Positions 1,103-34,540 of a stretch of 39,246 bases of DNA are shown here, piece by piece. Origin of the DNA: Oscillospiraceae bacterium (GTDB lineage: Bacteria > Bacillota > Clostridia > Oscillospirales > Acutalibacteraceae); NCBI GenBank assembly GCA_028706415.1, contig JAQWBK010000002.1, forward strand, positions 1 through 39,246, in the 5' to 3' direction. The position numbers and the translations under genes are program-made. The notes beneath the pieces are model-generated. The model worked only from the letters and a program-made list of their open reading frames with translations. It was not told where the DNA came from and made no database searches. The stretch's first letter is position 1. The number at the start of each line of letters is the position of its first letter.

Positions 1103-1162
1103 TTACTCACCTTTATAATATTTACCGAATATATTCACATGTAATAAACTTGCTGAATTTAT

Positions 1163-1171
1163 ATTATATCA
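1163..1171 (-). promoter_or_regulatory. Possible extended -10 promoter for the iclR-like gene
   Basis: On the minus strand the sequence TGATATAAT (TG-n-TATAAT) lies about 60 bases upstream of the regulator's start, inside the 124-base gap. No good -35 box is found at 16-18 bases, which is tolerated for extended -10 promoters. The surrounding DNA is very AT-rich, so a chance match is quite possible. Confidence 0.35.
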
Positions 1172-1226
1172 TAATATTATCGCTAAACATAGGGTAAGAA
1201 TTGGTTATACTATCAATAACATACTT

Positions 1227-1943: not shown

Positions 1944-1966
1944 TTCAAATTCTCCTCTTTACGCTT

Positions 1967-4561: not shown

Positions 4562-4631
4562 TATCAGACACAAGCCCTCCAAAGTATTTACTAAAAGACT
4601 CAATTAATCATGTATGTTCATCCTGCATAAA

Positions 4632-4660: not shown

Positions 4661-4689
4661 CAAATTTCATACAGTCAAATTTGTTGACA
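4655..4689. promoter_or_regulatory. Perfect 13-bp inverted-repeat operator between divergent promoters
   Basis: TGTCAACAAATTT (4655-4667) and AAATTTGTTGACA (4677-4689) are exact reverse complements separated by 9 bases. Each arm contains the -35 hexamer of one of the two divergent promoters, so a dimeric protein bound here would block or control both. The IclR-family regulator encoded in the left operon is the best candidate ligand (inference). No second copy was noticed in the window. Confidence 0.75.
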
Positions 4690-4712
4690 ATTTTCTAGCC
4701 AGCAAATATAAT
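4684..4712 (+). promoter_or_regulatory. Rightward consensus sigma-A promoter of the GH2/transport operon
   Basis: TTGACA (4684-4689), a 17-base spacer and TATAAT (4707-4712) give a perfect consensus housekeeping promoter. Transcription should start near 4719, leaving an AT-rich leader of about 115 bases before the GH2 start. The -35 box is inside the right arm of the operator palindrome, consistent with a strong promoter held down by a repressor. Confidence 0.85.
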
Positions 4713-4834
4713 TCAAAGCAGTAAGGTCGTAATTTAGTTAAAATAATTAAATTATTCTGTATATTACTATATATTTCCATCAGAAATGTCAAAAATGTGT
4801 GTAATTTTAATAATTGGAGAACAGGAGAGTTCAT

Positions 4835-7618
4835 ATGGAGCTGAATCATCAATACTATATAGAACCTCGGGAGAAAAACCATATTGAATTATGTGATGAA
4901 TGGAGCTATACATATACCGACAAGCCTGTCGATGATATAGCAGAGCTTGAATGGAACCTGAAAACACAAATACCGAATTCTATATATTGGAGCTTATATG
5001 AATCGGAAGTTCTTCCACATCCGTATGTTGGCTGCAACAGCCGATTATTTTCATGGGTAGATGAAAAAGTCTGGTACTATCAAAAAAGATTTAGTTTAGA
5101 TGATTCCTTTAATATCGGAGACGCTTTTTTATGTGCTGACGGAGTGGCTTATTATTCCCGGGTCTGGCTGAACGGAGCATTACTGGGAAGTCATGAAGGA
5201 ATGTTTGGCGGGCCAATCATAAATGTAGCCGACCGGCTTAATTATAATGGTGAAAACGAGGTTGTTATTGAAGTAAAAGCCTGCAACTATGGCATAAAGG
5301 ATAGATGGAGCCCGCGTAATCACAAGGGTGAAAACACGGCGATTGTACCGTGGAATATTGTTCGAGACAAGGACTCAAGCACCGGAGATTTTATTGTAAT
5401 CGGGCTTTGGCGGGGAGTGCGCATTGAATTCTTGCCAAAACTCCACATAAGCCGTCCCTACCTAACAACAAAATCTATTGAGGGCAACAGTGCCGTACTT
5501 CATTTGGATATGGAAATTGCTGATGGGACAATCAACGAGCTTGAATCTGACCCGGGTTACGCGTCCGGCTGCTACGGTTATACAAGGGCGTTCGATGTCG
5601 GGATAACCGGAGTTAAGCAGAAGGAGCCGGTTGATATTTGTGTTGAGATTCGTGAGAAGCTCACTAATATACGGGTTTATTATAATCAAACTCAAATACA
5701 GTTATACGATCGTGAAAAGAGCTTTATCAATCCCAAGTATTACGAATGTCAATTTTATAATACCGACATTGTAATTGAAAATCCAAAGCTATGGTTCCCC
5801 GTAAACATGGGTGAAGCCTTTTTGTATAATGTTACAATTACTCTCCTTAAAGGTAACAGGGTATATGATACTCACTCCTTCGATTATGGAATAAGGACCA
5901 TCTGCCTGGAAAATACGGCAGGGGACAAATTCAGAAGCCGATGGGGAAAATTCCAATTTATTATAAACGGTAAGCCGATATTTTTGAAGGGTATGAACTG
6001 GGCACCTATTGACTACCTATATAAGTTCAAGAGTGAGGAATACCGTTGGAATCTGGAATTGGTTAAAAATGCTGGTATTCAGCTGCTTCGGGTGTGGAGC
6101 GGCGGAGGAATTCCGGAGAATGATGATTTTTACAGGATTTGCGATGAACTGGGTATTATGGTATGGCAGGACAGCTTTATTGCCAATATGGAAACACCCA
6201 ATTGGCCGCAGGACATACTGGAGCAGCAGGTTTCGATGAATATTTATCGCATACGCAACCATCCTTCACTGGCGGTTCACTGCGGGGGGAACGAGTTTAA
6301 TCCCTATTCATTTGGAAATGCAGCATCCATGTTTGTTATTCAACGCAGTATAGAGGATCTGGATTATTCCAGACCGTTCATACGAACAACCGCAGATATG
6401 GGAAGTGCGCATATCTACAAGGATTTTGAGCCTGTTTGGTATCGGAAAGCATATAAGCAGCTGCCCTTCGTGGGCGAAACGGGTATTCATAGCTTTCCAA
6501 ATTTTAAAACCATCAAGCAGCTTATATCAGAGAAAGAATTGAGCATTTTGCAGGAGCATATGCCGGATTTAAGCAATCCTGTGGTAAAGGAAAAATATCC
6601 GGAGCTGATAAATCACTTTTCAGAGTATGTTCCGAGTCGTGTGCCGCGCATGGTCAACAGAACCAGCCATATTAACGATATTGACAATATTTCTTTAGAG
6701 GATTTTATTGAAGCTACAAATATTGCTTCGGGCGAATTTTATCAAATTATGCTCGAATCCATGCGAGAGAATTTTCCTGTTACATCGGGGATTATGCCAT
6801 GGGTATTCAAGCGTCCGTGGACTACTGTAGCGATACAGTTGGTGGACGGCATGGGGTTACCGGTCGCCCCGTACTACTATGTGTTGAATTCCTATCGCCC
6901 GCTTTCGGTTATGGTTTGTCTGGAGCAGTTGAGCTTTGCTCCGGAGGAGGTCATTAATCTGCCGGTTGCCATTATAAATGACAGCGGCAACAAGCTCGAG
7001 GGGGTTATGCTTAAGCTGGAAATATTGGACCCTGAATTCAAAACAGTATATAAAAAGACCGAAAATGTTGAAATGTCAAGTGAGCAGTATAAAAAGCATT
7101 TTCACTTCCAAGACTTTGAAATTCCGGGTTGGTTCACAGAAAAATACTTTTTCATACATGTCGCGCTTATAAAGGATGACATTATGCTCGGTCAAAGCTT
7201 TTACTGGCCAAGGTGTTTAAAGTGCTTAGAAGACAAAGCGTTTTGTACCGAATTCCGATCTCGCCCGCATGAAAACCTTCGATTTACGGAAGGCCCCTAT
7301 TTAAAGCCGCAGATTGCAGCAGTCGCTTCCGGGGCATTGCTTGGTTGCAGGGTGCTGTCGGTTGAAAGAAAAAGCATTAGAACAGAGCTAAATATTCAAA
7401 TCAAAAACAACTCTGATGTGCCCGCGTTTCCCATCAGCATTAGCTTGGCAAACAGTAATGCACCATTTTACACCAGCGACAACTATTATTTTCAAAGCTC
7501 ACGGCAAACCAGAGATATCAAAATGGTTATTTATGATGAGGATCACACTTTAAATAGTTTTGATATCGAGATTTCGGCGTGGAACAGCAACAAGGAAAGC
7601 ATAAAAGTTGAAAGTTGA
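4835..7618 (+). CDS. Glycoside hydrolase family 2 protein, beta-mannosidase-like
   Basis: A 927-residue GH2 enzyme without signal peptide, so it acts in the cytoplasm on imported oligosaccharides. Order: N-terminal jelly-roll domain (about 20-210, with a WLNGALLGSHEGMF sugar-binding-type loop), an Ig-like domain, a TIM barrel from about 380 (KGMNWAPID, RVWSGGGIPE) and C-terminal beta domains. The acid/base is Glu487 in CGGNEFNPYS and the nucleophile Glu548 in FVGETGIHSFPNF; NWAPID and GGNE favour beta-mannosidase-like subfamilies over beta-galactosidases. ATG 4835 is chosen because AGGAGAG lies just upstream; a TTG 21 bases earlier is in frame. First gene of the rightward operon. Beta-mannosidase fits the mannonate pathway opposite, but specificity for another beta-glycoside is possible. 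Confidence 0.9.
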   Translation: MELNHQYYIEPREKNHIELCDEWSYTYTDKPVDDIAELEWNLKTQIPNSIYWSLYESEVLPHPYVGCNSRLFSWVDEKVWYYQKRFSLDDSFNIGDAFLCADGVAYYSRVWLNGALLGSHEGMFGGPIINVADRLNYNGENEVVIEVKACNYGIKDRWSPRNHKGENTAIVPWNIVRDKDSSTGDFIVIGLWRGVRIEFLPKLHISRPYLTTKSIEGNSAVLHLDMEIADGTINELESDPGYASGCYGYTRAFDVGITGVKQKEPVDICVEIREKLTNIRVYYNQTQIQLYDREKSFINPKYYECQFYNTDIVIENPKLWFPVNMGEAFLYNVTITLLKGNRVYDTHSFDYGIRTICLENTAGDKFRSRWGKFQFIINGKPIFLKGMNWAPIDYLYKFKSEEYRWNLELVKNAGIQLLRVWSGGGIPENDDFYRICDELGIMVWQDSFIANMETPNWPQDILEQQVSMNIYRIRNHPSLAVHCGGNEFNPYSFGNAASMFVIQRSIEDLDYSRPFIRTTADMGSAHIYKDFEPVWYRKAYKQLPFVGETGIHSFPNFKTIKQLISEKELSILQEHMPDLSNPVVKEKYPELINHFSEYVPSRVPRMVNRTSHINDIDNISLEDFIEATNIASGEFYQIMLESMRENFPVTSGIMPWVFKRPWTTVAIQLVDGMGLPVAPYYYVLNSYRPLSVMVCLEQLSFAPEEVINLPVAIINDSGNKLEGVMLKLEILDPEFKTVYKKTENVEMSSEQYKKHFHFQDFEIPGWFTEKYFFIHVALIKDDIMLGQSFYWPRCLKCLEDKAFCTEFRSRPHENLRFTEGPYLKPQIAAVASGALLGCRVLSVERKSIRTELNIQIKNNSDVPAFPISISLANSNAPFYTSDNYYFQSSRQTRDIKMVIYDEDHTLNSFDIEISAWNSNKESIKVES

Positions 7619-7672: not shown

Positions 7673-10486
7673 ATGGGACGCAAAGCTTCGGTTTATTTAA
7701 TAACGGCAGTCATGCTGGCGTCGATATTCGGTCAATGTTGGGCTTCCGCCCAAGCGGTTTTAATAGAAAACAGTGACATGAATGAGCCGCAGATAAAAAC
7801 AAATAAGATTACATATCAGGATTATGCCAAGCTGCATACCGATAAAAAATGGTCAGGAGAGATGGTGGATGTCCGACCTGAACCTGAAAAGGCAGATATT
7901 GAGGGGAAATACTGTATATCCGCTGACAAAACGCTTGACTTGAGCGTTGAGGTCAAAACAGCGGGACTGTATAAGGTGATATTAGAATATCAGGCTGCAT
8001 CCCAAGCCAAGAGTAACTTTACACTTGCTTTTTCCATCGACGGGAAGCAGCCTTTTAACGGGCTTTCCGTGCTGTTGCTTACAAGACAGTGGAGGCATGA
8101 AGCCGGAGCGGATTCCTTTATCGAAAATGGTAATGATTTACGCCCAACCATGATAGAGGATCTTTCGTGGCAACCCTATTGTGTGAAAGACAGAGAAGGG
8201 AAGTATGCCGAGCCCTATGCGTTTTACCTTGAGGCTGGAGAACATACCTTATCTTTTCGTAATAATAACGAGGAACTGTATATTCGCAATATCAGATTAT
8301 CGGGCGTAAGCCAGCAAAAAACATATGAACAGTATTTGAAAGAGCATCAAGACGCAACAAAATACGACGGCGAGGACATTTTTATCGAAGCAGAGAAAAC
8401 AGACAGGGTGTCTTCCAGAACGGTTATCGCCATAAACGATATGTCAAGCCCGTTTACAACCCCCTATGACCCGTATTACATAAAGCTGAATACCCTTGGG
8501 GGGAACAATTGGAAGCATGTGGGCGAGAGGGCAACCTGGAAAATAAACGTCCCGAGTGACGGTCTGTATCGAATATCCATGAGGTTCAGGCAGAATTATT
8601 ACAATGGGATTGATACACATCGCAGCTTATACATCAACGGAGAAATTCCTTTCGAGGAAGCAAAGAATATTTCCTTTGCTTACGGCATTGGCTGGCAGGT
8701 TAAAAACATTGGTGACTATTACTTATATTTGGATGAGGGTGAAAATGAAATCGCGCTTGAGGTGGTCCTCGGAGAAAACGGTGCGATACTCAAAGATTTG
8801 GAAAAGGTGATTTATAACCTTAATCGATTGTATCGTTTGGTCATAATGGTGACAGGTACCACGCCTGATATTTATCGGGATTATAATCTGGATAAAGAAA
8901 TCCCGGATCTGATGGAAATGCTTGAGCAGTACAAAAAAGAGATATGGGATTTATTTGATTTGATTGAGCAGAGTTATGGCGAGGGCGGAAGTGAATTATC
9001 CACACTGACCCAGATACGCCATCAGCTTGATGACATGTATAAAAACCCCTCCTCAATTACTCGGGGTTCACGACTTAACCGTTTCAAAACCAACATCAGC
9101 TCGCTGGGCGCATGGGCTAATAAGATCAGAGAGCAGCCTGTCGAAATTGATTCAATTTATTTGTTTGGGGAAGGTGCAAAGCCCCCTCAAGCGGAAACCG
9201 ACCTTTTTCATATAATAGCCCATCGTGCAAAGAGATTTTTGGCATCGTTTTTAATTGATTACAGTGTTATAGGTGATGGGAGCGCCCAATCAAGCATACG
9301 CGTTTGGGTGTCAACCGGTCGGGATCAAGCTCAGCTTCTTAAAAATATGATTGATGACACCTTTACGCCCAAGTTTCATGTTTCTGCACAGGTCGAATTG
9401 GTTCAGGGCGGTTTTATTGAAGCGGTTTTAGCAGGGCAGGGTCCGGATATTGCGTTGGACCGGCCGGAAACCGATCCGGTAAACTACGCGATGCGGAATT
9501 CACTTTATGATCTGAGTGCCTTTGAGGATTTTGATGAAGTAACATCCTGGTTTGAAAAGGAAAGCATAATACCCTTCCGGTATGAGAAAGGCTATTACGG
9601 TCTACCTGTAACCCAATCCTTCGATATGATGTTTTATCGTATAGATATTTTTGAGGAACTAGGGATGAAGGTCCCAAAAACATGGGATGAGCTGGTTTTG
9701 GATTTATTGCCCATATTACAGAGTAACAACATGTCTGTTGGTATAGGTATACTAAACGAGTGCACCGCCTTCAAGACATTACTTTACCAAAACGGCGGTC
9801 AGATTTATTCAGACGACCTGAAGACAGCTGCACTGGATACCCAGATCGCGTATCAAGCATTTAAAGATACTGTGGAATTATATACCGATTACGGGATGCC
9901 ACAGACATACGATTTTATGAACCGTTTCCGCTCCGGCGAGATGCCAATAGGTCTTGCAAACTATACCATGTACAACAATCTTAATATAGGTGCACCCGAA
10001 CTGAGCGGATTGTGGGAAATGGTCGAGATTCCCGGCATACTGGATAAGAACAGCAGCATTAACAATAAGCAGATAATGGCAAACACCGCTGCGATTATGA
10101 ATGCCGATTCAATAAATCCTAAGGCAGCATGGGCATTCTTAAAATGGTGGGTTTCCTCGGAGACGCAGAGTCGATATGGGAACGAGATAGAGTCCATCCT
10201 GGGTGTTGCGGGACGATATACACCTGCTAATGTTGAAGCCATGCGCCAGTTGCCTTGGGAGGTAAAGCAGCTTCAATTATTGGAAAAGCAGCGAAATAAA
10301 TCGATATCCCTACCTAATCTACCCGGCAGCTATTTCACCTCTCGTGCAATTCATAACGCCTTTGTTTCATCGGTAATAGATAGCAGGAACCCCAGAGAAG
10401 AATTGATGTACTGGAACGAAGAAATCAATATGGAGCTGGAAAGAAAGCGTAAAGAATTTGCCTTTAAACCTGAGTTACAGAGCTAG
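7673..10486 (+). CDS. ABC-transporter solute-binding protein fused to N-terminal carbohydrate-binding-like domains
   Basis: A 937-residue exported protein. Residues 1-27 form a signal peptide with a signal-peptidase-I site (CWASA-QA) and no lipobox, so unlike most Gram-positive binding proteins it has no evident lipid anchor. Two beta-sandwich segments follow (about 40-215 and 230-400; features such as AGLYKVILEY, FYLEAGEHTLSFRN and DGLYRISMRFRQNY resemble CBM6/CBM35-type folds), then a helical linker (about 405-480) and a C-terminal solute-binding domain (about 540-900; RVWVSTGRDQ, PDIALDRPE, KVPKTWDEL). Ribosome site AGGAGG. The next gene starts 12 bases downstream, so it probably serves the first permease pair. 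Whether the extra domains hold the protein to polysaccharide is inference. Confidence 0.88.
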   Translation: MGRKASVYLITAVMLASIFGQCWASAQAVLIENSDMNEPQIKTNKITYQDYAKLHTDKKWSGEMVDVRPEPEKADIEGKYCISADKTLDLSVEVKTAGLYKVILEYQAASQAKSNFTLAFSIDGKQPFNGLSVLLLTRQWRHEAGADSFIENGNDLRPTMIEDLSWQPYCVKDREGKYAEPYAFYLEAGEHTLSFRNNNEELYIRNIRLSGVSQQKTYEQYLKEHQDATKYDGEDIFIEAEKTDRVSSRTVIAINDMSSPFTTPYDPYYIKLNTLGGNNWKHVGERATWKINVPSDGLYRISMRFRQNYYNGIDTHRSLYINGEIPFEEAKNISFAYGIGWQVKNIGDYYLYLDEGENEIALEVVLGENGAILKDLEKVIYNLNRLYRLVIMVTGTTPDIYRDYNLDKEIPDLMEMLEQYKKEIWDLFDLIEQSYGEGGSELSTLTQIRHQLDDMYKNPSSITRGSRLNRFKTNISSLGAWANKIREQPVEIDSIYLFGEGAKPPQAETDLFHIIAHRAKRFLASFLIDYSVIGDGSAQSSIRVWVSTGRDQAQLLKNMIDDTFTPKFHVSAQVELVQGGFIEAVLAGQGPDIALDRPETDPVNYAMRNSLYDLSAFEDFDEVTSWFEKESIIPFRYEKGYYGLPVTQSFDMMFYRIDIFEELGMKVPKTWDELVLDLLPILQSNNMSVGIGILNECTAFKTLLYQNGGQIYSDDLKTAALDTQIAYQAFKDTVELYTDYGMPQTYDFMNRFRSGEMPIGLANYTMYNNLNIGAPELSGLWEMVEIPGILDKNSSINNKQIMANTAAIMNADSINPKAAWAFLKWWVSSETQSRYGNEIESILGVAGRYTPANVEAMRQLPWEVKQLQLLEKQRNKSISLPNLPGSYFTSRAIHNAFVSSVIDSRNPREELMYWNEEINMELERKRKEFAFKPELQS

Positions 10487-10498
10487 GAGTGCAGACAA

Positions 10499-11425
10499 AT
10501 GATTTTTGGCAGTAAAAAGGGTCCTGAGCTTAACAACAGAAGAGTACGATATAATGACCTTAGAAGCTATTTTACAAGCTATTCTATGCTCATACCTTTT
10601 TTATCAATGTTTTTTATTTTTACATTGGTGCCTATAGTTTCTGCAATTGCTTTAAGCTTTTCCGATTTCAATATGCTTGAGCTGCCAAGCTGGGTAGGGT
10701 GGGCGAATTATCGCCGTCTGATTTTTGAAGATGATGTATTACTGATTGCATTAAAAAACACCCTAATCTTTGCAATAATAACAGGGCCGGTAAGCTATAT
10801 TTTTGCCTTTGTTTTTGCATGGCTAATCAATGAAATGCCTTCAAAAATGCGGGTTCTGATGACAATAATATTTTATGCTCCCTCAGTTTCGGGAAATGTG
10901 TATTTCCTGTGGCAATATATTTTCAGCAGCGATAGCTATGGACTTGTAAATGGGATACTTATTTCAAACGGCATTATTGACGAGCCCATTCTTTGGTTTA
11001 CCGACCCGAATTATAATCTGATAATAATAATAATTGTTCAATTATGGTTATCGCTGGGGGTTAGCTTTCTTGCATTTATTGCAGGTCTGCAATCCATAGA
11101 CCGTACGCAATATGAGGCGGGCGCCATAGACGGCATTCGTAACCGCTTTCAGGAGCTTTGGCATATTACCCTTCCAAACATGAAAGCAATGCTGCTGTTT
11201 GGCGCGGTTATGCAAATATCAGGAGCATTTTCGGTTGGCACGATTACTCAGGCATTGTCCGGAGGCTATATGAGTGTAAGATATTCTACACTGACAATTA
11301 TTAACCACATGACAGATTACGGCACGGTTCGATATGAGATGGGATATGCATCGGCGATTTCAGTTATTCTGTTTATTATGGTTTATCTGTCTAAAAAACT
11401 AGTGTTTCGTCTGCTTAAGTGGTAG
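10499..11425 (+). CDS. Sugar ABC transporter permease (LplB/MalF type), pair A
   Basis: A 308-residue membrane protein with about six transmembrane segments and the ATPase-docking EAA loop at about residues 205-228 (YEAGAIDGIRNRFQELWHI). It belongs to the carbohydrate-uptake (CUT1) permeases and lies between a binding protein and its partner permease. AGGAG precedes the start by 8-12 bases, and the gap to the upstream gene is 12 bases. No ATP-binding subunit is encoded nearby, as in many Gram-positive CUT1 systems that share MsmX-like ATPases. Confidence 0.93.
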   Translation: MIFGSKKGPELNNRRVRYNDLRSYFTSYSMLIPFLSMFFIFTLVPIVSAIALSFSDFNMLELPSWVGWANYRRLIFEDDVLLIALKNTLIFAIITGPVSYIFAFVFAWLINEMPSKMRVLMTIIFYAPSVSGNVYFLWQYIFSSDSYGLVNGILISNGIIDEPILWFTDPNYNLIIIIIVQLWLSLGVSFLAFIAGLQSIDRTQYEAGAIDGIRNRFQELWHITLPNMKAMLLFGAVMQISGAFSVGTITQALSGGYMSVRYSTLTIINHMTDYGTVRYEMGYASAISVILFIMVYLSKKLVFRLLKW

Positions 11426-11466
11426 GTTTCGGTAATATTTAAACAAATAACGAACAGGTGAAAAAA

Positions 11467-12351
11467 ATGCTATCAGCAGTAAAGAGAAAGCGTATACGGG
11501 TTTCAAAAGTTAAACGACTCAGCAGGTCACCGGTCACCACATTTTTCTTGGCTTTCATGCTGTTTGTGGTGGGCGTATTTATGGCGTTGCCCATGGTCTA
11601 TGCCGTGGTATCTGCATTTAAACCCATGGAAGAGTTCTTTGTTTTTCCCCCTCGCTTTTTTGTAATTAATCCAACAACCGATAATTTTATATTAATGGGT
11701 CAACTAATGTCCAGCATGTGGGTTTCGTTTGAGAGATACCTCTTTAATACATTATTTGTGAGCGGTCTTTCCACCCTCATTTATACATTTATTGCTGTTT
11801 TGGCATCCTACCCCTTGGCAAAGCATCGATTCCCGGGTTCAAAAGTTATTCGGGAGCTGATTGTTACGGCTCTTATGTTCACCTCCGCGGTTACCGGTGT
11901 TGCACAATATATAATTTTAGCAAGACTGCGTCTTATCAATACATATGGTGCGTTATTGCTGCCTTCGCTAGCAAGCACCATGGGGGTGTTTTTATGCATG
12001 CAGAATCTTACCCTTGTACCGGACGAGATGCTGGAATCAGGCAAAATAGACGGTGCGGGGGAATATCGAATCTGGTGGAGTTTGGTTGTGCCCAATATAA
12101 AACCGGTTGTGGCAACAATCGTTATTTTTCAGTTTCAGAGCGTTTGGAACCAGACAGGGCACCATCTTATTTTTAATGAAGCATTGAAGCCGCTGGCGAC
12201 TGCTCTTTCCCAGATAACATCAGCAGGTATTTCACGAGCGGGTGCGGGTGCTGCGGCATCTCTATTGCTAATGATTCCGCCTATTCTTGTGTTTATCATT
12301 TCTCAGGGCAAGGTAATGGAGACGATGGTGAATTCGGGGATTAAGGGATAA
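11467..12351 (+). CDS. Carbohydrate ABC transporter permease (LplC/MalG type), pair A
   Basis: A 294-residue protein with about six transmembrane segments and an EAA loop near residues 190-212 (ESGKIDGAGEYRIWWSLVVP). ATG 11467 is preferred to a GTG nine bases upstream because that GTG is part of the ribosome site AGGTGA. It pairs with the preceding permease to form the channel of a CUT1 importer. The N-terminus is basic before the first membrane segment, as is usual for MalG-type subunits. Confidence 0.92.
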   Translation: MLSAVKRKRIRVSKVKRLSRSPVTTFFLAFMLFVVGVFMALPMVYAVVSAFKPMEEFFVFPPRFFVINPTTDNFILMGQLMSSMWVSFERYLFNTLFVSGLSTLIYTFIAVLASYPLAKHRFPGSKVIRELIVTALMFTSAVTGVAQYIILARLRLINTYGALLLPSLASTMGVFLCMQNLTLVPDEMLESGKIDGAGEYRIWWSLVVPNIKPVVATIVIFQFQSVWNQTGHHLIFNEALKPLATALSQITSAGISRAGAGAAASLLLMIPPILVFIISQGKVMETMVNSGIKG

Positions 12352-12412
12352 AATCTGGTTGAATCGTTAAGATCATAACCAAGCTAAAAGGGGCGAAGGG
12401 TGCTGTGGATAC

Positions 12413-14485
12413 ATGAAAAAATTAATAGTAGTCCTTTTGATGGTTTGTATATCGGTTTTTTCCCCATTAACGGTGTTGGGTAGTCCCGGAACAGGAAAAG
12501 CCTATACATATGACCACAAAGATCAAGCCACCGCGATTCCAGATCCCTATGAGGTTAAAACGGTACTGAACGGTGATAAATTTTCGTTTTCCAAGCCTGT
12601 TGATATGCTATATAAAGGAAATGAACTTTATATCCTTAATGGAGACACCAGTGGAAAAATTGTTGTATTGAATGAGGATTTTACCTTTAACAGATTTATT
12701 TCATTTATAAAAGACGGTAAGCCTTATAAGACGCAAGAGCCCAAAAGCCTATGGATTGATTCGGATGAAACCATACTTGTCGCCGACCGTAGTAGAAAAT
12801 TGGTTTTTCGCATTACTCCTCAGGGGGAGGTTATCAAGGAATACGAAAAACCCAAAACCGATTTGATGGATGAGAACACCGATTATCTTCCTTACAAAGT
12901 GATCACAGACCGTATGAGACGCATTTACATCATGTCCGAGGGTGAGTATCGCGGAATCATACAGCTGGACAAGGACGGCGAATTTGTCAGCTTTTTTGGA
13001 GCGAAATCTGTTGCCGTTACGGGAACTTTATTAATTGACATGCTTTGGAGAAATTTCATGACCGAAGCACAAATAAAAAACAGCAAGAGATACCTTCCTG
13101 TTGAATATAACAACATGACCATTGATGATAGAGGATTTATTTATACAACCAGCGGCTCTGCATCCCAACCTTCTAAATACATTTCAAAGATAAACTCAAA
13201 AGGCAGTGATGTTCTCGATAGCAGCGGTAATTTCGGTGACTATAATCTCGGTAGTTTTATGGGAACATGGTACAAAACCAACTTTAAGGCAATAACGGTA
13301 GATGACTACGGCTATATCTCGGTGTTGGATAAAACATGGAACCGTATTTTTCAATATTCCAGAGAAGGCGAGCTATTATATGTTTTGGGTGGAAACGGAA
13401 GTCAGGAGGGTACATTTTCGGAAATCACCGAAATTATAAGCAAGGATGACAAACTTCTGGTTTGTGATATTTCCTTAAATAATATTACGGTTTTAAAACC
13501 TACTTCATTTGGGAAAGACATACGCAAGGCTAACCTATTGTTTGAAAGCGGGTTATTCCAAGAGTCCATACAACCGTGGAAAAGTGTTTTAAAACAATGC
13601 AGTAATTACGAGGCGGCTTATGTGGGGATTGGCAAGTCACATTATGTCCAGAAGCAGTATAAGGAGGCCATGAAATATTACAAGCTGGGCTATTCGAAAG
13701 CCGACTACTCTCAGGCATTTCAGCGGTATCGTTCACAGGTAATGCGGGATTCATTTCCCACAGTGATGACCTTCTTGGTTGTTGCATTGGTAGCCGGAAC
13801 GATTATATTAAGGCTGGTAAGGAAAAAGTTTGGCTCCAGAAAGCTTGTCCTGGATGAATCGGGAAAGATTTTATATCTGTTTCATGTTTTGGCACACCCC
13901 TCTGACGGGTATCAGGAGCTTCGCTATAACAAAAAATACAGCCTGTTTCTTGCAAACTTCCTGGCACTCAGCTGGTTTATCATAGAGGCATGTTATTTTA
14001 ATTACCGGGGTTTTATTTTCAACAACAATACCCCAGATGATTTTAATCTGGTTTCATTATTTGCTACAACCGTTGGTATGGGTATGGTGTTTTGCTTGTG
14101 CAACTGGCTGCTATCCACTTTTTTTGAAGGAAAAGGCGGGCTAAAGCAGGTTTGGATATATTTTTGTTATGCTTTAGCACCTGTACTTGCCGCGATGATT
14201 ATCGAGATATTTCTATCCCGTGTGCTGACATTGGATGAGTCGATGTTTATCAATTATATCCATGTCATAGGGCTGGTGTGGACTGTATTACTTATTATGG
14301 TTGCGATGGGGCAGCTTCATCAGTATTCATTATCAAGAAATATATTTTCATTAGTGGCATCAGTAATAGGAATATTTGTAGTTCTGTTCTTGGTTTTTCT
14401 GATGTACAACCTGTTTATCCAGTTCAAGTATTTTATCGAGAGTTTTGTGAAGGAATTGCTTTATCGTAGCGAAGTCGGTTTTTAG
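12413..14485 (+). CDS. NHL-repeat, TPR and YIP1-like membrane protein
   Basis: A 690-residue protein. A signal peptide (about 1-23) is followed by an extracytoplasmic six-blade-like NHL propeller (about 50-365, blades such as IDSDETILVADRSRKLVFRI and VDDYGYISVLDKTWNRIFQY), a TPR-like helical stretch (about 370-442), a membrane helix (about 452-471) and a C-terminal YIP1-like module with four or five membrane helices (about 500-680). From memory, proteins of this layout sit beside DUF5696 lipoproteins and CUT1 permeases in Firmicutes sugar clusters; the same order is seen here. Its job is unknown; a sensor or accessory of the transporter is plausible because the propeller faces outside. The ribosome site is weak. 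Confidence 0.8.
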   Translation: MKKLIVVLLMVCISVFSPLTVLGSPGTGKAYTYDHKDQATAIPDPYEVKTVLNGDKFSFSKPVDMLYKGNELYILNGDTSGKIVVLNEDFTFNRFISFIKDGKPYKTQEPKSLWIDSDETILVADRSRKLVFRITPQGEVIKEYEKPKTDLMDENTDYLPYKVITDRMRRIYIMSEGEYRGIIQLDKDGEFVSFFGAKSVAVTGTLLIDMLWRNFMTEAQIKNSKRYLPVEYNNMTIDDRGFIYTTSGSASQPSKYISKINSKGSDVLDSSGNFGDYNLGSFMGTWYKTNFKAITVDDYGYISVLDKTWNRIFQYSREGELLYVLGGNGSQEGTFSEITEIISKDDKLLVCDISLNNITVLKPTSFGKDIRKANLLFESGLFQESIQPWKSVLKQCSNYEAAYVGIGKSHYVQKQYKEAMKYYKLGYSKADYSQAFQRYRSQVMRDSFPTVMTFLVVALVAGTIILRLVRKKFGSRKLVLDESGKILYLFHVLAHPSDGYQELRYNKKYSLFLANFLALSWFIIEACYFNYRGFIFNNNTPDDFNLVSLFATTVGMGMVFCLCNWLLSTFFEGKGGLKQVWIYFCYALAPVLAAMIIEIFLSRVLTLDESMFINYIHVIGLVWTVLLIMVAMGQLHQYSLSRNIFSLVASVIGIFVVLFLVFLMYNLFIQFKYFIESFVKELLYRSEVGF

Positions 14486-14498
14486 AGGGTGAAACAGT

Positions 14499-16778
14499 AT
14501 GATAATACGGCACAAGCATAATATAAAAGCATTTATCTACACAATAACAATTACCTGTATATTGCTATTTGGTGGACCTGTAGGATGTTCATCAAACACT
14601 GATAAGTCGATACCGTTCGAAAAAAAGAGTTTTGAAAAGGGCAGTATTACAAAATCAACCGAAACAATGGTGGTTGAAACAGAATCGCTGAGAATGAATT
14701 TCAATCCAGTCAAATGCACATTTGATCTTATTGTAAAGGATACAGAGGCTATATGGTCATCAAATCCGCCGGATGAATGGAAGGATCCCTATGCTGCCAG
14801 CATCACAAAAACCGATTTAAAATCTCAGTTACTTGTTACATATAAAATCGACAATACCAAGATGAGAAATACAAACAGCGTAGTTTCCTCCGTAAATAAA
14901 AAAACCTTTACCGTAGCAAGACTGAAAAATGGGATACGTGTAGATTACACATTTAGGGAAGGCTTTGTAATTCCGGTAATGTACGAACTCTTTGATGACA
15001 GCATGGAGGTAAGTATACTATTTTCAGAAATTGAGGAAACCACCGAACAACAAATAAATGAAATAAAGCTGCTTCCTTATTTCGGCGCTGCGTCCGAGTC
15101 CGAAAAAGGCTATTTATTTGTGCCGGACGGCAGCGGTGCAATTATTGATTTTAACAATAAGAAAACGGATTATCCGGTCTATGACAAGATGGTATACGGG
15201 AATGATCAGACCTTACCAAGCGACATTGTGACAACACGTGCGGAGCAGATTCATTTTCCCGTTTTCGGCATGAAAAAGGAAAACGGTGCCTTTGTTGCCG
15301 TCATTGAGGATGGGGATGGTTTTGCAAGAATTCAAGCCTCGGTGGCAGGGAAAAATGCAGCCTTCAATACCGTATACTCAACCGCGATTTATCGTGCCGT
15401 AGAAAGGCTGAATGTTCTGAACGGCAGTCTTGGCACTGCGGGGGCTGTCCTATATTCTGCGGAGGATCCCGTGCGCACAAACTCATACCGTGTAAGGTAT
15501 ACCTTTCTTTCAGGCCAGGATTCAAGCATCGGGGGGATGGCGAAATCCTATCGTAACCGGCTTATAGAGCAGAAAGCATTAACAGCATCAGAGAAGGAAA
15601 CCGCTTTATATATAGATATATATGGCGGAGTAAAAAAGGCGAAATCATTTCTTGGCATCCGATATGATGGAGGGGAGTCGCTTACCTCCTTTTCACAGAC
15701 CCGAGATTTGCTGGACGATTTGCGAAGAGAAGGGGCAGATTCACTGGTTGTGGGATTCCGCAATTTAAGCCGTGACTCGTATAAAGGCAAGCCGGAAACA
15801 TCATTTAAGCCACTTTCAGAGCTGGGCGGCAAAAAGGGTTTGGACAAGCTTCTTGATTATGTAAAGGAAAATGAAATTCCGTTTTATGCATATTCCGATT
15901 TTTATTCCTTTGAAAAAAGCGGGAACTCATTGTCTAAATATTTTAATGTTTGCAAAACCCTTGACCTTGGTGCTGCACAGGTCTACTACAAAAAGCTAAA
16001 CACGAATATTCAGAATAAAACGCGGGACCCATTCTATCTATTATACCCCACAGGCTATCAAAAAGCGGTAAGCAATATGATAAAATCTGCAGATAATAAC
16101 AAGATAGATGCAATTCATTTGGGGGATATCTCCAGTAGGTTGGCAGGGGATTATTCGCGGGGCGGGCTTCAGCGTGACCAGGCAATCAACGCTCTTAAAA
16201 GTGCGTTGGATATGGCAGCCGATAAATCACTTATGCTTAAATCTCCGAACAGCTATCTTCTTGAATATGCAGACTATATTACGGATCTTCCTATGACCTC
16301 CGAAAAGAATCTGTTGTTTGATCGAGATGTTCCGTTTTTACAAATGGTTCTGAAAGGCAGCCTTTCCTACGCTGCATATTCTGCAAATCTGAATAGCACA
16401 TCGGACGACCTGTTTTTGCATCAGGTGGAATCAATGAGCCAGATTCATTATTCATTTATATCGGATAATCCGTCTGATCTTTTAAATACCGACATGGTGG
16501 ATTTGTACGGTTTGTCTCTTGCGCAAAGGGAACTGGCAGTAGCGCAATATAAAGCAATGTTGGCCATTTCACAAACAGTAAATAATGCGTATATTGATGA
16601 ATATTCCGGTGATGGAAGTGTATCCGAGATAAAATACAGCAATGGAGTAACCATATATGTAAACTTTACAAATGAGAATGTTGAATTCGGTGAAATAAGC
16701 ATTCCATCCAGAGGATATGCGGTAGTACGCAATGGCAAAATGTTGTTGTCCGGGAATGAGGTTAGGCAAAATGATTAA
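14499..16778 (+). CDS. DUF5696-like lipoprotein
   Basis: A 759-residue predicted lipoprotein: signal peptide with lipobox ending at Cys30 (GPVGC). The N-terminal half is beta-rich (about 50-350, with FVPDGSGAIIDFNN and VFGMKKENGAFVAVI). The C-terminal half (about 365-700) has the alternating pattern of a TIM barrel: an IDIYGG strand, SLVVGFRNL, IPFYAYSDF, DAIHLGDISS and SLMLKSPNSY. This resembles DUF5696 proteins, which I recall beside YIP1-like proteins and sugar permeases; the family call is from memory. The barrel hints at an undescribed glycosidase or sugar-binding function, but no catalytic pair can be assigned. It follows the YIP1-like gene by 13 bases, and its last 8 bases overlap the next gene. 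Confidence 0.75.
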   Translation: MIIRHKHNIKAFIYTITITCILLFGGPVGCSSNTDKSIPFEKKSFEKGSITKSTETMVVETESLRMNFNPVKCTFDLIVKDTEAIWSSNPPDEWKDPYAASITKTDLKSQLLVTYKIDNTKMRNTNSVVSSVNKKTFTVARLKNGIRVDYTFREGFVIPVMYELFDDSMEVSILFSEIEETTEQQINEIKLLPYFGAASESEKGYLFVPDGSGAIIDFNNKKTDYPVYDKMVYGNDQTLPSDIVTTRAEQIHFPVFGMKKENGAFVAVIEDGDGFARIQASVAGKNAAFNTVYSTAIYRAVERLNVLNGSLGTAGAVLYSAEDPVRTNSYRVRYTFLSGQDSSIGGMAKSYRNRLIEQKALTASEKETALYIDIYGGVKKAKSFLGIRYDGGESLTSFSQTRDLLDDLRREGADSLVVGFRNLSRDSYKGKPETSFKPLSELGGKKGLDKLLDYVKENEIPFYAYSDFYSFEKSGNSLSKYFNVCKTLDLGAAQVYYKKLNTNIQNKTRDPFYLLYPTGYQKAVSNMIKSADNNKIDAIHLGDISSRLAGDYSRGGLQRDQAINALKSALDMAADKSLMLKSPNSYLLEYADYITDLPMTSEKNLLFDRDVPFLQMVLKGSLSYAAYSANLNSTSDDLFLHQVESMSQIHYSFISDNPSDLLNTDMVDLYGLSLAQRELAVAQYKAMLAISQTVNNAYIDEYSGDGSVSEIKYSNGVTIYVNFTNENVEFGEISIPSRGYAVVRNGKMLLSGNEVRQND

Positions 16779-17673
16779 AAGCACAAATCGGAAACCGAGG
16801 CCAATGTCCCTAGAGCGAAAAACCAAATGGTTTGGATGGGTGTTTATGGCCCCGTGGCTTCTGGGGCTTATCTACTTTTTCATTATTCCCTTTGCCTCCT
16901 CTTTCATATATTCAATTAACTTTGTCACAATAGGTGAAACCGGTCTGGATTACGAGTTTTTGGGTCTCAAAAACTATGCTTACATGTTGCAGGAGGATGC
17001 GAGTTTTGTAAGAGATGTGGTGGGAGAGGTAAAAAATGTATTGACCCAAGTTCCCATCATTCTTATTTATTCAATATTTGTTGCTCTTTTGCTGAACCAG
17101 AAATTCCCCGGTCGTTTATTTGCCCGCTCTTTATTTTTTATTCCGGTAATAATCGCATCCGGTCTGGTGATTCAGATTATCCAAAAAGATTTATTTGCGA
17201 ACACCAATATGAGGGCGGATGAAAGTTCGATATTCCAGATTGGGCTGATAAGCGAAATTCTGGGGAATCTAAACTTTGCCTCTGATTTGATAAATATAAT
17301 AACCACTGCGGTTGCTCAAATATTCGATTTGTCCTGGAAATCCGGGGTACAAATATTACTGTTCCTCAGCGCTCTGCAAAGAATTCCGCCAACATATTAT
17401 GAAGTGGCATCGGTAGAAGGTGCCAATGCTTGGGATGCATTTTGGAAAATAACATTCCCGGTTCTTTCACCGTCATGTTTATTAGTAGGTGTTTATACAA
17501 TCGTTGATTCGTTCACCAGTCAAACTAATCCAGTTATGAAAAATATCATCACGCGTTTTAATGAAGTCAAATATGGATATGCATCTGCATCTGCAATTAT
17601 ATATTTTATTGTTATCGGAGCATTTCTCGGGGCTGTTATGCTCCTTGCAAGAAAAAGGGTTCATTACACATAA
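16771..17673 (+). CDS. Sugar ABC transporter permease (LplB/MalF type), pair B
   Basis: A 300-residue protein with about six transmembrane segments and an EAA loop at about residues 210-232 (YEVASVEGANAWDAFWKI). ATG 16771 overlaps the stop of the DUF5696-like gene (ATGATTAA), with GAGG about 9 bases upstream; an in-frame ATG 39 bases earlier would add an unlikely Cys-rich N-terminus. It is a second MalF-type subunit in the same operon, distinct in sequence from the one at 10499-11425. Confidence 0.92.
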   Translation: MIKSTNRKPRPMSLERKTKWFGWVFMAPWLLGLIYFFIIPFASSFIYSINFVTIGETGLDYEFLGLKNYAYMLQEDASFVRDVVGEVKNVLTQVPIILIYSIFVALLLNQKFPGRLFARSLFFIPVIIASGLVIQIIQKDLFANTNMRADESSIFQIGLISEILGNLNFASDLINIITTAVAQIFDLSWKSGVQILLFLSALQRIPPTYYEVASVEGANAWDAFWKITFPVLSPSCLLVGVYTIVDSFTSQTNPVMKNIITRFNEVKYGYASASAIIYFIVIGAFLGAVMLLARKRVHYT

Positions 17674-17723
17674 AATCAACAACAAGCAGCGACACTATGA
17701 ATATTAAATGTCGAGGAGTTATT

Positions 17724-18713
17724 ATGGATTTGCAAAAAGCTCTACAAAATAAATCAAAATTGCATATAAGCACCCATAACAAACAACATATCGGAAATTT
17801 TCTCTTTTTTCTGTTTCGGACGGCGTTTTTTATTGGCATGAGCTATGTATTGCTTTTTCCGCTTATTGTAATGCTATCCCGTGCTCTTCGCCCATACAGC
17901 GATATGTACAACCCCAGCATTGTATGGATCCCCAGCAAGATTACATTTGAAAATTTCAGTTATGCACTCAAGGCACTGGGCGGTTGGAGCTCTATTTATA
18001 AAACATTACGTATTGTGTTTGTTAGTACGCTGCTGACCATGGTTTCCTGCTCTATGGCAGGTTATGGGCTTGCCCGATATCGCATTAAAGCGGTGCCGTT
18101 TCTGACAGCCATTGCCGTTTTCACCTTTATTGTTCCGATTCAGACCTATGTAATTCCTATATTTATACAATTTCGGTTTTTTGATTTTTTTGGAATCGGT
18201 TCTTTGATAGGACTGTTTACCGGCGAAAAGCTGGTAGTCAATCTCACCAGTTCAGAAGCCATATACTATATACTCAACATTCTCGGTAGTGGCACTCGTT
18301 CGGGACTGTTTATCCTGGTGTTCATGCAGACATTTAAAGGGATACCTCAGGAGCTGGAGGATGCATCACGCGTTGATGGCTCGGGGGAATTCAGAACATT
18401 TTTTCAAATAATGCTGCCAAATGCGGTTCCCGGCTTTATTGTAACCTTTGTAATGTCGATGGTTTGGCAGTGGAACGATTATTTCTTCCCATCAGTGGTA
18501 TACCGTCAGGACTTTTTCCTATCCAAAAACATGATGCAACTTCGGGTGCTCGCGACCAAAGCCCTTGGTCTCAATTCATATGCGACCAATCTTTCAGAAA
18601 CAGTGGTTATGTTCGCTGGTTGTTTTATTTATATTGCACCGCTGCTGTTAATGTATATGGTTGCACAAAGATACTTTTTGCAAAGTGTCGAAAGAACGGG
18701 AATTACAGGATGA
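17724..18713 (+). CDS. Carbohydrate ABC transporter permease (LplC/MalG type), pair B
   Basis: A 329-residue protein with about six transmembrane segments and an EAA loop near residues 210-235 (LEDASRVDGSGEFRTFFQI). Start 17724 is chosen for the GAGGAG five bases upstream; an ATG 27 bases earlier has no such site. It completes the second permease pair. Its binding protein is either the fusion protein at 7673-10486 or, more likely, the lipoprotein at 28398-29783, which has no other permeases near it. Confidence 0.92.
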   Translation: MDLQKALQNKSKLHISTHNKQHIGNFLFFLFRTAFFIGMSYVLLFPLIVMLSRALRPYSDMYNPSIVWIPSKITFENFSYALKALGGWSSIYKTLRIVFVSTLLTMVSCSMAGYGLARYRIKAVPFLTAIAVFTFIVPIQTYVIPIFIQFRFFDFFGIGSLIGLFTGEKLVVNLTSSEAIYYILNILGSGTRSGLFILVFMQTFKGIPQELEDASRVDGSGEFRTFFQIMLPNAVPGFIVTFVMSMVWQWNDYFFPSVVYRQDFFLSKNMMQLRVLATKALGLNSYATNLSETVVMFAGCFIYIAPLLLMYMVAQRYFLQSVERTGITG

Positions 18714-18760: not shown

Positions 18761-19582
18761 GTGAGAAAGCGAATTTGTCTAATACTAATCGCAGGACTGA
18801 CATTAACCATGATAATGTCGGGTTGCGGAAACGGGGATTCCGAGGTGTCAAGCGATTCAAAGGTCACTTCCACATCCGATACCAATCAGCAAACCGAGAC
18901 AACAGTTTCCGAAAGTACAACGGTTAAAAAGACCGTAACAAGCACGACAACAAAGCCCTCTAAGGGGGAAAGCATAATCGGTAATGTTTCAGATTTACGA
19001 ACAGAATATAAACGACTTCCGAATTTTGAGAAACTTTCACAAGCCCAATTAGAGCAGGTAATATCCAGAGCCGATATTACCAAGCTCAGCATAAGCAAGG
19101 ACAAGGCGCATATAGCAAAGGGTGCAAACGCCGCGATAAAATTCGAGTATATCAGCACATCATCATGGGCACAGACCATATTTGCCAAAAAACTTGATAA
19201 ACCTCTTTCCAATGGAGCTGGAGAAACTTTTATTATAGACCCGGTAGAGGAACCCCTTGACGGTTATAAAGGATTGCGCTTTTGGATAGATTTGACCAGA
19301 CCGGAAGGAAAAGCAACCGAGAAGATGGAGCTAGTTTTCTTTATGGGCAACTGGTCAGCAGGATATCGCAGCGATAATCAATATACCGTTACCCTTCCTG
19401 ATAACAACTATAAGGGGTATATTACTCTTCCCTTTGACAAGTTTGTCAACGGTTACAAACCCGACACCTTACAATGCAACAAAACCACAATTGATTATTT
19501 TGCATTTAAACTACTTACTCCGAATGTGAAAGACACAGTCATATATATATCCGGCTTTCAAGCATATCGTGAAGTCTTTTAG
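18761..19582 (+). CDS. Lipoprotein with Ser/Thr-rich linker and beta-sandwich (CBM-like) domain
   Basis: A 273-residue lipoprotein starting at a GTG with CAGGAG upstream. The lipobox ends at Cys22 (IMSGC), followed by a Ser/Thr-rich spacer (about 24-70), a short helical region and a beta-sandwich domain (about 120-273). That domain matches the threefold repeated domain of the wall protein at 24772-26910 in order and motifs: YKGLRFWIDL against YEGIRIWLQT, a FMGNW/YIGDM strand, GYITLPFDKFVNG against GYIDIPFASFVNG, and a closing VYIS...YRE. This points to a shared, probably carbohydrate-binding, surface domain. No catalytic residues are apparent. Confidence 0.8.
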   Translation: MRKRICLILIAGLTLTMIMSGCGNGDSEVSSDSKVTSTSDTNQQTETTVSESTTVKKTVTSTTTKPSKGESIIGNVSDLRTEYKRLPNFEKLSQAQLEQVISRADITKLSISKDKAHIAKGANAAIKFEYISTSSWAQTIFAKKLDKPLSNGAGETFIIDPVEEPLDGYKGLRFWIDLTRPEGKATEKMELVFFMGNWSAGYRSDNQYTVTLPDNNYKGYITLPFDKFVNGYKPDTLQCNKTTIDYFAFKLLTPNVKDTVIYISGFQAYREVF

Positions 19583-19621: not shown

Positions 19622-22600
19622 ATGAATAAGAAAAAGAGTCTGGCGTTAATAGCGGCAATAGTTTTGCTTTTTACCATGGTTATGACGACGTCATTTATTG
19701 TGGCGGTTGCGGCAAACTACACGGTAGAGACTAATATTGATCAGGCTTATCTAACAGGCATGGGTTCGAATATATTAAAGGGAAAAACACTGCTAGAAGG
19801 AAGCGACTGGTCTGAGGCTAAATCCAGCAACTATAACGGCACCTATTATTTAACAGACGGGGTTCTTGTTCATAAAAAGGATCTCGGGAACCTGTACTAT
19901 GGCAATTTAGGCGTGCTGTTTTATAACAGCATAAATAAAATGTTTGTATACGATTTAGGCGCAAACTATACAGCAACCAAAGCCTTGGTTGCCGGCATCT
20001 ATGATGCTGCCGAGAACTATTGTATAAATGAATACAAGCTTTTTTTGTCTACGGACAAAAAAACACTGTTTACGGATGAGAGCCTGATTGTGCATTACAC
20101 TAATAACCAGTGGGTTGCAGGGGATGAAGTGAATTCACCCGGTGCGGCACAGGCATTTCTGTTCAATCAAGACACCCAACCAAGCGGACGCTATTTCGGT
20201 ATTCAATTAGTAGTCCCCAACAGCAGAACCATAGTTGACAAGACTGCTTACCTTAACCAGTTTGGTCTGTACGGCATGCCCGCGGATTATACGGTAAATA
20301 ACGAGGTCCAGCAAAGCGATGTTACCGCGTTGGGCGGCAACATCTTGAAGAATAACAGTAAATTGTATAATGCGGCAGATCCCGCAGCATGGGTAGAAAT
20401 TACTAGTTCTAGTAATTATAACGGAGTACCTTTTTTGAATGACGGAGTTCTGCGTCATTCCCAAAGCGGTGGCACCCTATATCGCGGTGAGGAAGGCTTG
20501 ATTTTCTGGGCCGGTTCAGGGAAGAAATATGCATACGATATGGAAATTTCATACTCGGCGGAGGATATACTGGTCGCAGGCGGCTATGATATGACCGGCG
20601 GCGGGGCGGATTACAGCATATCGGAATATAAGGTATTTTTATCGAATAACAAGGTTGATTTATTCAGTGATGCAAATTGCGTTATATACTACATAAACTC
20701 TGAAAAGGCTCCTGCACAATGGTTTGAGTACAATGACCTAGCTCAAAAGCCCACCGGACGATATTTCGGTGTTGAAATAATAAAAAGCAATGAAACCTCA
20801 ACCAATGTATACCTTAACCAGTTTGGCGTGTACGGATATCCGGCGGGATATACGGTGGTTGACGGTCTAAAGCAGAATACCACGATTGATGAGTTTGGAC
20901 AAAAGCTGGGTTCGAATATTTTAAGCAAGAAAACATTAGAGGTATATTCAGATGGTACCTATTCGGCCCCAACATACGGCAGCGATGGTTATTCATCGGT
21001 ATCAAGGTACACGGATAACACCGTCTATTCTGCCCACACTACTTTTTATGAAGGCAACGGAAAGATGCTTGCATACGACATGCAGGATACCTACCAAATC
21101 AGCAAGTTGATGGTTGCCGGCATTTACGACACTGCGGTAAATAAATGCATCGCGAAATATAAAATCTTCATATCAGATTCAAAGGATGCTTTATTTAATG
21201 ATGAAAATTGTGTTGTAAGTCACACAAACAACGCATGGGCGGCAGGCTCGGACAGCTTCTTGGGAGGGGCACAGGCCTTTCTGATAAATCATGACAGCTA
21301 CATTACAGGACGGTATGTTGGATTTCAGTTTGAGGATGCTTCTTGGACCGAAACCGTTGTGAGAATCAGTGAGCTGGGCGTATACGGTTCACCGGCAAAC
21401 GGCAGGTTTACGGTATCCCAAGGGGTCACTCAGCTGGAATATAACAAACAAGGTACGAATTTACTCACCGGAAAAGATATGTATAAGAATAATATTGATA
21501 CCAATGCATTCAGCCTAGTTACCAAGGATAGTACCGGCAGAGCGACTTCTGAGCTCGCCAACGACAATATTACCCAACAGCTTCGTTGGTATGATAATGC
21601 TAAAAATTATGGGACAATGCTCTATTACAACCTCGGTGATGCGTATGAAATTGAGAAGCTGGTGGTTGCGGGAATATATGATTCGGTAAACAACTATTCG
21701 CTGGCTCATTATGAGATCTACATTTCTAACAGCCTGGATACCCTCTGGAATTCTTCCAGCATGGTTATCGATTATTACAACACAGCCTATAAGCCGGGCA
21801 GCACCGGTGATCTCATGGGTGCCGTGCAATTGTTTGAATTCACTAATGGCAATCTGCCCAAAGGTCAGTATTACGGTATACATATTCCCGACTCGATGGC
21901 TCCGTTGTATCCGACAAGCCCGGCAAACTATTTTAAAGAGCTGCGTATCAGCGAGCTTGCGGTTTTTGCCAACAAAGCTAATGCGGGTTATACCGTAACC
22001 CAAAATATGACCCAAGAGGAATATGAAGCTCTTGGTAACAACATATTGAGCGGTAAAAAGCCTTACGACACGAACTGGTCGCTTATTGAATATGACAGCT
22101 CCGGTTATCGCAAGACCGAATGGCTTACAGACGGCACACTCGTGGGAGTCCCGCTTGACCTTGCGGTTGATTTCTGGAATGGTGACGGAAAAAAGCTTGC
22201 TTATGATATCGGGCATGGGGATTATATTGACAGGTTACTCGTTGGCAGCTGGTATTCACCCACCGATAATCAAACACCGGCAAATTATAAGATTTATGTT
22301 TCAAATACGCAGGAAACCCTTTGGAATACCGAGAATTGTGTAACGAATTATTATAACAACGCATGGAAGGCAAATTCCTCGGTGAATGCGGGCAGCACCC
22401 AGCTGTTTACCTATGGCGTAGCTGGGGCGGAGCTTCCATACGGACGATACATCGGCTTTGAGTTTGTGGATTGTAATGTCACCTCTGCAACGCTTCGGCT
22501 TTGGGAGATTGGCGCGTATACCATGACCGAGATTCCGGTTGCGGATAACGGTATTACCGCGATTCAAAGGGTGGCAAAGGATGGCGAGGCTTATGATGTT

Positions 22601-24728: not shown

Positions 24729-24771
24729 TAGTACCAAAAATACAATTTAAAATGTGAAAGGGGTTAATCTT

Positions 24772-29795: not shown

Positions 29796-29819
29796 CGGGA
29801 AACAATTTATGGTTTCCCG
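29796..29819 (+). other. Stem-loop between the binding-protein and SLH/barrel genes
   Basis: CGGGAAAC (29796-29803) pairs with GTTTCCCG (29812-29819) around an 8-base loop, 12 bases after the binding-protein stop. It is followed only by AATTTCTC, so it is a weak terminator at best; such hairpins often protect binding-protein mRNA and so raise its level over downstream genes. Confidence 0.45.
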
Positions 29820-29853
29820 AATTTCTCTCCATCAGGCTGAAAGGAAGAATCTA

Positions 29854-32375: not shown

Positions 32376-32401
32376 TAACAGTGAATACAGGGAGGAATAC
32401 C

Positions 32402-34453: not shown

Positions 34454-34540
34454 GTGCTCTTCTGCTGTAAATCGTGGCAGAATCTTTGGCGGCGCCGAAA
34501 TCGCACAACTCCCCAACGGCTGAAAGGAATGGAGCTTTCT

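Follow-up and report, generated by a model that had tools for sequence, protein, structure and literature searches.

Why does a single run of genes in an Oscillospiraceae bacterium encode four CUT1-type permeases with two exported proteins between them? Gram-positive glycan importers are usually described as one solute-binding protein (SBP), two permeases and a shared ATPase. The genes in question lie on a 39,246-nucleotide stretch of contig JAQWBK010000002.1 (the window), from a metagenome-assembled genome (MAG) of 1.56 Mb that is 79% complete. Six co-directional, closely spaced open reading frames (ORFs) occupy positions 10499–18713, in the order permease A, permease B, an NHL/Yip1 protein that we call Y, a DUF5696 protein, permease C and permease D. 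Our reading, to which we assign a probability of about 0.62, is that these genes belong to a conserved glycan-uptake unit in which two CUT1 ABC importers share a cell-surface module and draw on a shared ATPase encoded elsewhere. We favor two importers with a shared surface module because A/B co-evolve apart from C/D, a second SBP is present and the modules of the unit can swap or part.

A preliminary description of this DNA had recognized the four permeases and the NHL/YIP1-like and DUF5696-like proteins, and profile matches bore out these assignments. The parts of the unit in the window are as follows.

7673–10486, + strand: SBP1, 937 aa (SBP_bac_1, 1e-16; weak CBM_35 and Golvesin_C matches)
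10499–11425, + strand: permease A, MalF/UgpA-type CUT1 subunit (BPD_transp_1, 1.4e-10; EAA loop kept; one clade, support 100)
11458–12351, + strand: permease B, MalG/UgpE-type, putative partner of A (UgpE, 4e-22; EAA loop kept)
12413–14485, + strand: Y, predicted NHL-TPR-Yip1 membrane protein (Yip1, 6e-13; transmembrane prediction)
14499–16778, + strand: DUF5696 protein, long form, predicted GH129 fold, N-terminally anchored or secreted (PF18952, 2e-152)
16771–17673, + strand: permease C, UgpA-type (UgpA, 2e-12; EAA loop kept; one clade, support 100)
17697–18713, + strand: permease D, MalG/UgpE-type, putative partner of C (BPD_transp_1, 3e-10; EAA loop kept; one clade, support 100)
28398–29783, + strand: SBP2, lipoprotein with a divergent CUT1-type solute-binding domain (118 bits to the SBP2 model; lipobox IAGC)

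Gene order and co-occurrence

DUF5696 was searched for in 391 genomes of the class and in 399 genomes of the phylum, about 110 neighborhoods were fetched, and gene labels were assigned by models that started from the window proteins and were then refined on these loci. We found the strict order SBP1-A-B-Y-DUF5696-C-D in 80 of the 108 loci that carry the long form of DUF5696, the exceptions being mostly contig ends. Y adjoined DUF5696 in 105 of these loci, C directly followed DUF5696 in 106, and C was followed by D in 100. Since this gene order recurs at two sampling levels, class and phylum, it is not a product of chance. The order A-B-Y-DUF5696-C-D, proposed as a conserved unit in the preliminary description, was thus upheld, and the unit exceeds six genes: SBP1 stands at its head in nearly all intact loci, and in 43 of 87 loci, about half, D is immediately followed by a second SBP. 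Roughly a fifth of the sampled genomes of the class carried the unit, which was also present in other lineages of the phylum. A search with the single DUF5696 protein returned only Caldicoprobacter oshimai, C. algeriensis and one MAG.

The co-occurrence of the parts across the 391 genomes was nearly complete. With SBP1 counted in its fused form (E below 1e-80), long DUF5696 was present in 80 genomes, Y in 81 and SBP1 in 79, and all three occurred together in 77. DUF5696 and Y were found together in 78 genomes and alone in 2 and 3, respectively (Fisher 7e-76), and the corresponding value for SBP1 and DUF5696 was 7e-79; these P values ignore relatedness among the genomes, which span many families. 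The mismatches were mostly contig-end fragments or weak NHL-only matches. Neither of the patterns that would speak against a unit was found: the permease pairs do not usually lie apart, as they rarely separate, and Y and long DUF5696 are not widespread without permeases. The notion that DUF5696 in general is widespread without the unit was rejected, because only a short subfamily, described below, occurs in this way.

Rearranged loci revealed the internal structure of the unit. Four loci (L111, L112, L115 and L116) had the swapped order Y-DUF5696-C-D-SBP1-A-B. In four others (L101–L104) Y-DUF5696 occurred without SBP1-A-B alongside; three of these had C and D next, and the fourth was cut at a contig end. 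From these swapped and parted loci we conclude that the unit consists of two modules, SBP1-A-B and Y-DUF5696-C-D. B was displaced downstream in two loci, L056 and L059, from genomes of one genus.

Permease pairs, solute-binding proteins and the ATPase

BPD_transp_1 matched permeases A, B and D, with B slightly under the Pfam cut-off, and C was without a Pfam match. All four permeases matched UgpA or UgpE of NCBIfam, and the glycine of the EAA loop was present in 98–100% of 90 loci for each of them. The EAA loop is the contact of a permease with the ATPase. The start of permease C is more likely the ATG at 16771, which overlaps the DUF5696 stop codon, than position 16732. When placed in one tree together with 37 further CUT1 permeases, the four permeases of the unit each formed a single clade with support of 98–100. 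Because each permease is a single clade, the unit was probably assembled once and then inherited.

We also carried out a mirror-tree analysis of the 90 loci, in which partial correlations were controlled for the average tree. The partial r was 0.78 for A-B and 0.33 for C-D, and about 0 for A/B versus C/D; Y-DUF5696 and SBP1-DUF5696 gave 0.36 and 0.38. From the coupling of A with B and the near-zero values between pairs, we infer two heterodimers, A/B and C/D. These values bear on the suggestion in the preliminary description that the six genes perhaps encode one transporter, and on a reading in which A, B, C and D would form a single larger importer served by either SBP. All four permeases are co-inherited, each has a single origin and they are nearly always adjacent, as such a transporter would lead one to expect. 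However, A/B showed no residual co-evolution with C/D, loci L101–L104 have the Y-DUF5696-C-D module without SBP1-A-B alongside, and known CUT1 importers have two permease subunits. Together with the second SBP in about half of the loci, these findings leave a four-permease transporter with very little credibility.

Each importer could be matched with a sugar-type SBP, SBP1 by SBP_bac_1 and SBP2 by a model of its equivalents. In SBP1, a C-terminal solute-binding domain of the CUT1 type is preceded by two CBM35/CBM6-like beta sandwiches and a helical region; the AlphaFold2 (AF2) model of the protein (pLDDT 86.5) matched the SBP fold, and the beta-sandwich domains gave weak CBM_35 or CBM_6 matches in some relatives. 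The protein at 28398–29783 had no Pfam match. It scored 118 bits against a model of the SBPs that follow D in other loci, which was built without it, and it is likely the operon's second SBP, displaced downstream in the same operon run.

None of the window ORFs that were scanned proved to encode an ATPase, in agreement with the preliminary description. An ATPase with an OB_MalK domain (MsmK/UgpC-type) was present, usually in one copy, in all 24 nearly complete genomes checked, 20 of which bear the unit. In Caldicellulosiruptor (Anaerocellum) bescii, growth on cellobiose, cellulose, xylan and pectin suffers when the shared msmK gene is deleted (PMC8579813).

Several further loci depart from the usual arrangement around C and D. 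The genome of the window holds a second copy of the unit (L011; G000:C11:18500-36500) with two Thr-rich surface proteins inserted between C and D. Beside this copy, at L184:9006-12415, lie a D-type permease (67% identical to the D of the copy), an SBP and a surface protein, with C absent; the D-SBP2 module can thus duplicate alone. A solitary 325-aa gene preceding a D-like permease in the same genome was considered as a C permease and rejected, as it encodes a Thr-rich surface protein. In a genome of the same family (G186; L013 and L014), a secreted protein of 1611 or 1864 aa replaces D after C, and the 1864-aa protein carries CBM_4_9.

The proteins between the permease pairs

Y is predicted to consist of an N-terminal signal, an extracellular NHL beta-propeller with TPR, one transmembrane helix and a Yip1 domain with five transmembrane helices. 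NHL was present in 27 of 29 relatives and TPR in many of them, and 47 of the 80 strict-order loci had separate NHL and Yip1 genes in place of a single Y gene.

The AF2 model of the long DUF5696 protein (pLDDT 89.8) has the GH129 fold; the nearest structures in Foldseek were those of GH129 (5opq and 5wzn, E 3.7e-33), followed by GH101. A short subfamily of about 565 aa (L121–L133), which in the 13 loci read was never beside the unit, aligns with the GH129 enzyme NagBb across the catalytic domain (2e-34). This subfamily accounts for all DUF5696 proteins seen outside the unit. It keeps the GH129 active site, with Asp361 and Glu404 invariant in all 13 sequences, and may be a family of uncharacterised GH129-like enzymes. 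We inferred the catalytic positions of the long form by alignment through the short subfamily to NagBb. The nucleophile Asp, on strand 4, was found in only 14 of 55 long sequences, the acid/base Glu, on strand 5, in 8 and both in 2; the window protein has Asp543 and a lysine, Lys581, at the acid/base position. Most of the other polar residues that the short form keeps without exception are lost as well, whereas Tyr158, Tyr165, Arg166, Asn455 and Glu469, which are likely structural, are kept. As aligned here, Pfam DUF5696 mixes two groups, a short one with a GH129 active site and a long degenerate one. In all likelihood the long form does not act as a GH129-type enzyme, a possibility that we rejected as the main reading after this alignment, and the surface processing suggested in the preliminary description is unlikely because the catalytic positions are not conserved. 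Instead, long DUF5696 is probably a sugar-binding or scaffold pseudo-enzyme, with fold and context pointing to sugar binding. Its earlier designation as a lipoprotein is also doubtful: the motif before Cys30 is PVGC, and a lipobox was present in 19 of 108 relatives and an N-terminal hydrophobic segment in 88.

These results bear on the proposal that the locus encodes two ordinary, independent CUT1 importers that have only an operon and a regulator in common; DUF5696 would then be a true GH129-type enzyme, and Y a membrane protein with no relation to the importers. The C. bescii operon has in effect been annotated in this way in print, with X and GH129 beside two transporters, and the proposal agrees with the separate pairing of A/B and C/D and with the variable order of the modules. 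However, Y, long DUF5696 and SBP1 are essentially never apart, and the low counts of Asp and Glu in the long form contrast with 13 of 13 in the short, enzyme-like subfamily. We therefore regard independent importers as unlikely.

We consider a sensing unit, in line with the surface sensing suggested in the preliminary description, more improbable still; in it, Y and DUF5696 would bind glycans outside the cell and relay a signal through the membrane to control importer expression or gating. Y does join an extracellular propeller and TPR to a multi-pass Yip1 domain, and DUF5696 resembles a binding protein more than an enzyme. Nevertheless, no recognized signaling domain was found in Y, and conventional regulators serve such loci: the C. 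bescii operon is under the control of XynR, which is of the LacI type (PMC8579813), and in L027 D is followed by a gene that reads as a LacI-type regulator.

The glycan-uptake unit that we favor would work as follows. Importer 1 would consist of SBP1 and A/B, with SBP1, through its two CBM-like domains, probably keeping longer oligosaccharides close to the membrane. Importer 2 would consist of C/D, often with SBP2, and both would be powered by a shared MsmK/UgpC-type ATPase encoded elsewhere. Y and DUF5696, encoded between the importers, would form an extracellular platform, most closely tied to C/D, that binds oligosaccharides or hands them over, and the variable neighboring enzymes would set the substrate. 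What the data establish is the gene order, the co-occurrence, the single origin of each permease, and the fold and active-site loss of DUF5696; the pairing of the subunits, sharing of the ATPase in this organism, sugar binding by DUF5696, the platform and the direction of hand-over are what we infer. In a more specific version, Y and the pseudo-GH129 would assemble into a glycan-docking complex, anchored in the membrane and physically linking both importers, as a constant uptake machine that is combined with other enzymes as the polysaccharide changes; we offer it only tentatively, as the odds lie against it.

Several points weigh against this reading. The partial correlations of C-D and Y-DUF5696 were modest, and co-regulation alone can explain a conserved gene order. 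The OB_MalK ATPase was not found in the window's MAG, which is 79% complete, and the msmK deletion result stems from another species. A minority of the DUF5696 proteins have acidic residues at or near both catalytic positions.

Neighboring genes and known systems

The operon reaches beyond the six genes, with a GH2 gene and SBP1 upstream and a Thr-rich lipoprotein, GDSL-type proteins and SBP2 downstream. Its 5' end contains two further features.

4684–4712, + strand: sigma-70 consensus TTGACA-17-TATAAT upstream of the GH2 gene (perfect 12/12 match)
4814–7618, + strand: GH2-family glycosidase, first gene of the operon (Glyco_hydro_2 domains)

The element at 4684–4712 is the only 12/12 sigma-70 match in a region whose total of promoter-like sites is at chance level, and it is likely the operon promoter. 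No homologue of the GH2 gene was found in the other loci searched; we take it to be substrate-specific cargo outside the conserved core. The companions of the unit in the window are GH2, GDSL esterase-like and GH1 genes. Elsewhere the cargo includes GH9 and GH10 in Caldicoprobacter (L022/L092), GH26 mannanases in L105 and L108, and a GH106-like rhamnosidase in L101. A divergent cluster at 323–4603 (− strand) encodes an IclR regulator, an RraA-like aldolase, a short-chain dehydrogenase, a UxuA-like mannonate dehydratase and an SMP-30/gluconolactonase, which suggests sugar-acid catabolism tied to the locus. A uronate-containing glycan is a possible substrate.

Downstream, 19622–24361 encodes a secreted protein of 1579 aa in which F5/8-type-C-like repeats are combined with a GDSL esterase domain, and 27022–28320 encodes a second, related GDSL protein. 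The Thr-rich lipoprotein (18761–19582) resembles part of the larger 24754–26910 protein (phmmer 2e-21); neither matched a convincing Pfam family. The same was true of three large, mutually similar proteins encoded side by side at 29809–32076, 32381–34396 and 34454–36820.

The closest known system is the xylan degradation locus Athe_0174-0185 of C. bescii, xloEFG-X-GH129-axoFGE, which is induced on xylan and contains two CUT1 transporters under XynR and AraR control (PMC8579813). By its published description, this polysaccharide-induced locus has a matching gene order (an SBP and two permeases, then an unnamed and a GH129-type protein, then two more permeases and an SBP) with MsmK acting in trans. 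It differs in that SBP2 of the window is displaced and the window's cargo is not xylan-specific, and it was published as two transporters plus X and GH129 rather than as a recurring unit. We found no paper on the recurring unit, a named Y protein or the degenerate active site in the open-licence literature, which is weak evidence of novelty; open-licence full texts likewise gave nothing for DUF5696, nor for Yip1 with NHL and an ABC transporter. The breadth of the unit and the loss of the active site thus appear undescribed, the gene order itself having been published once, for C. bescii.

Ordinary CUT1 importers that share MsmK/UgpC have the same composition: an SBP, MalF/UgpA- and MalG/UgpE-type permeases that carry EAA loops, and no ATPase gene nearby. 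The unit differs from them in having two permease pairs that are locked to each other and to Y and DUF5696, and in the unusually long N-terminal part of SBP1 with its CBM-like domains. With seven or eight genes for two importers and two accessory surface proteins, it would be standard-looking glycan-uptake hardware that has gone unrecognized as a unit. DUF5696 has its fold and a distant sequence similarity in common with the GH129 glycosidases (NagBb, 5wzn; ZgGH129, 5opq) and GH101, whereas the long form has not conserved the catalytic Asp/Glu or most of the other polar residues of the active site. Should the accessory proteins prove to act together with the importers, the prediction of long-type proteins as "GH129" enzymes is a mis-annotation, and the roles of the DUF5696 and NHL-Yip1 families become testable, for example in the genetically tractable C. 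bescii.

The SusCD core of Bacteroidetes is similar by analogy only, in that a constant uptake core is surrounded by variable enzymes. The two are not homologous, SusCD using a TonB-dependent channel and the unit ABC importers; if the docking complex exists, it would be a Gram-positive functional counterpart of the SusCD core.

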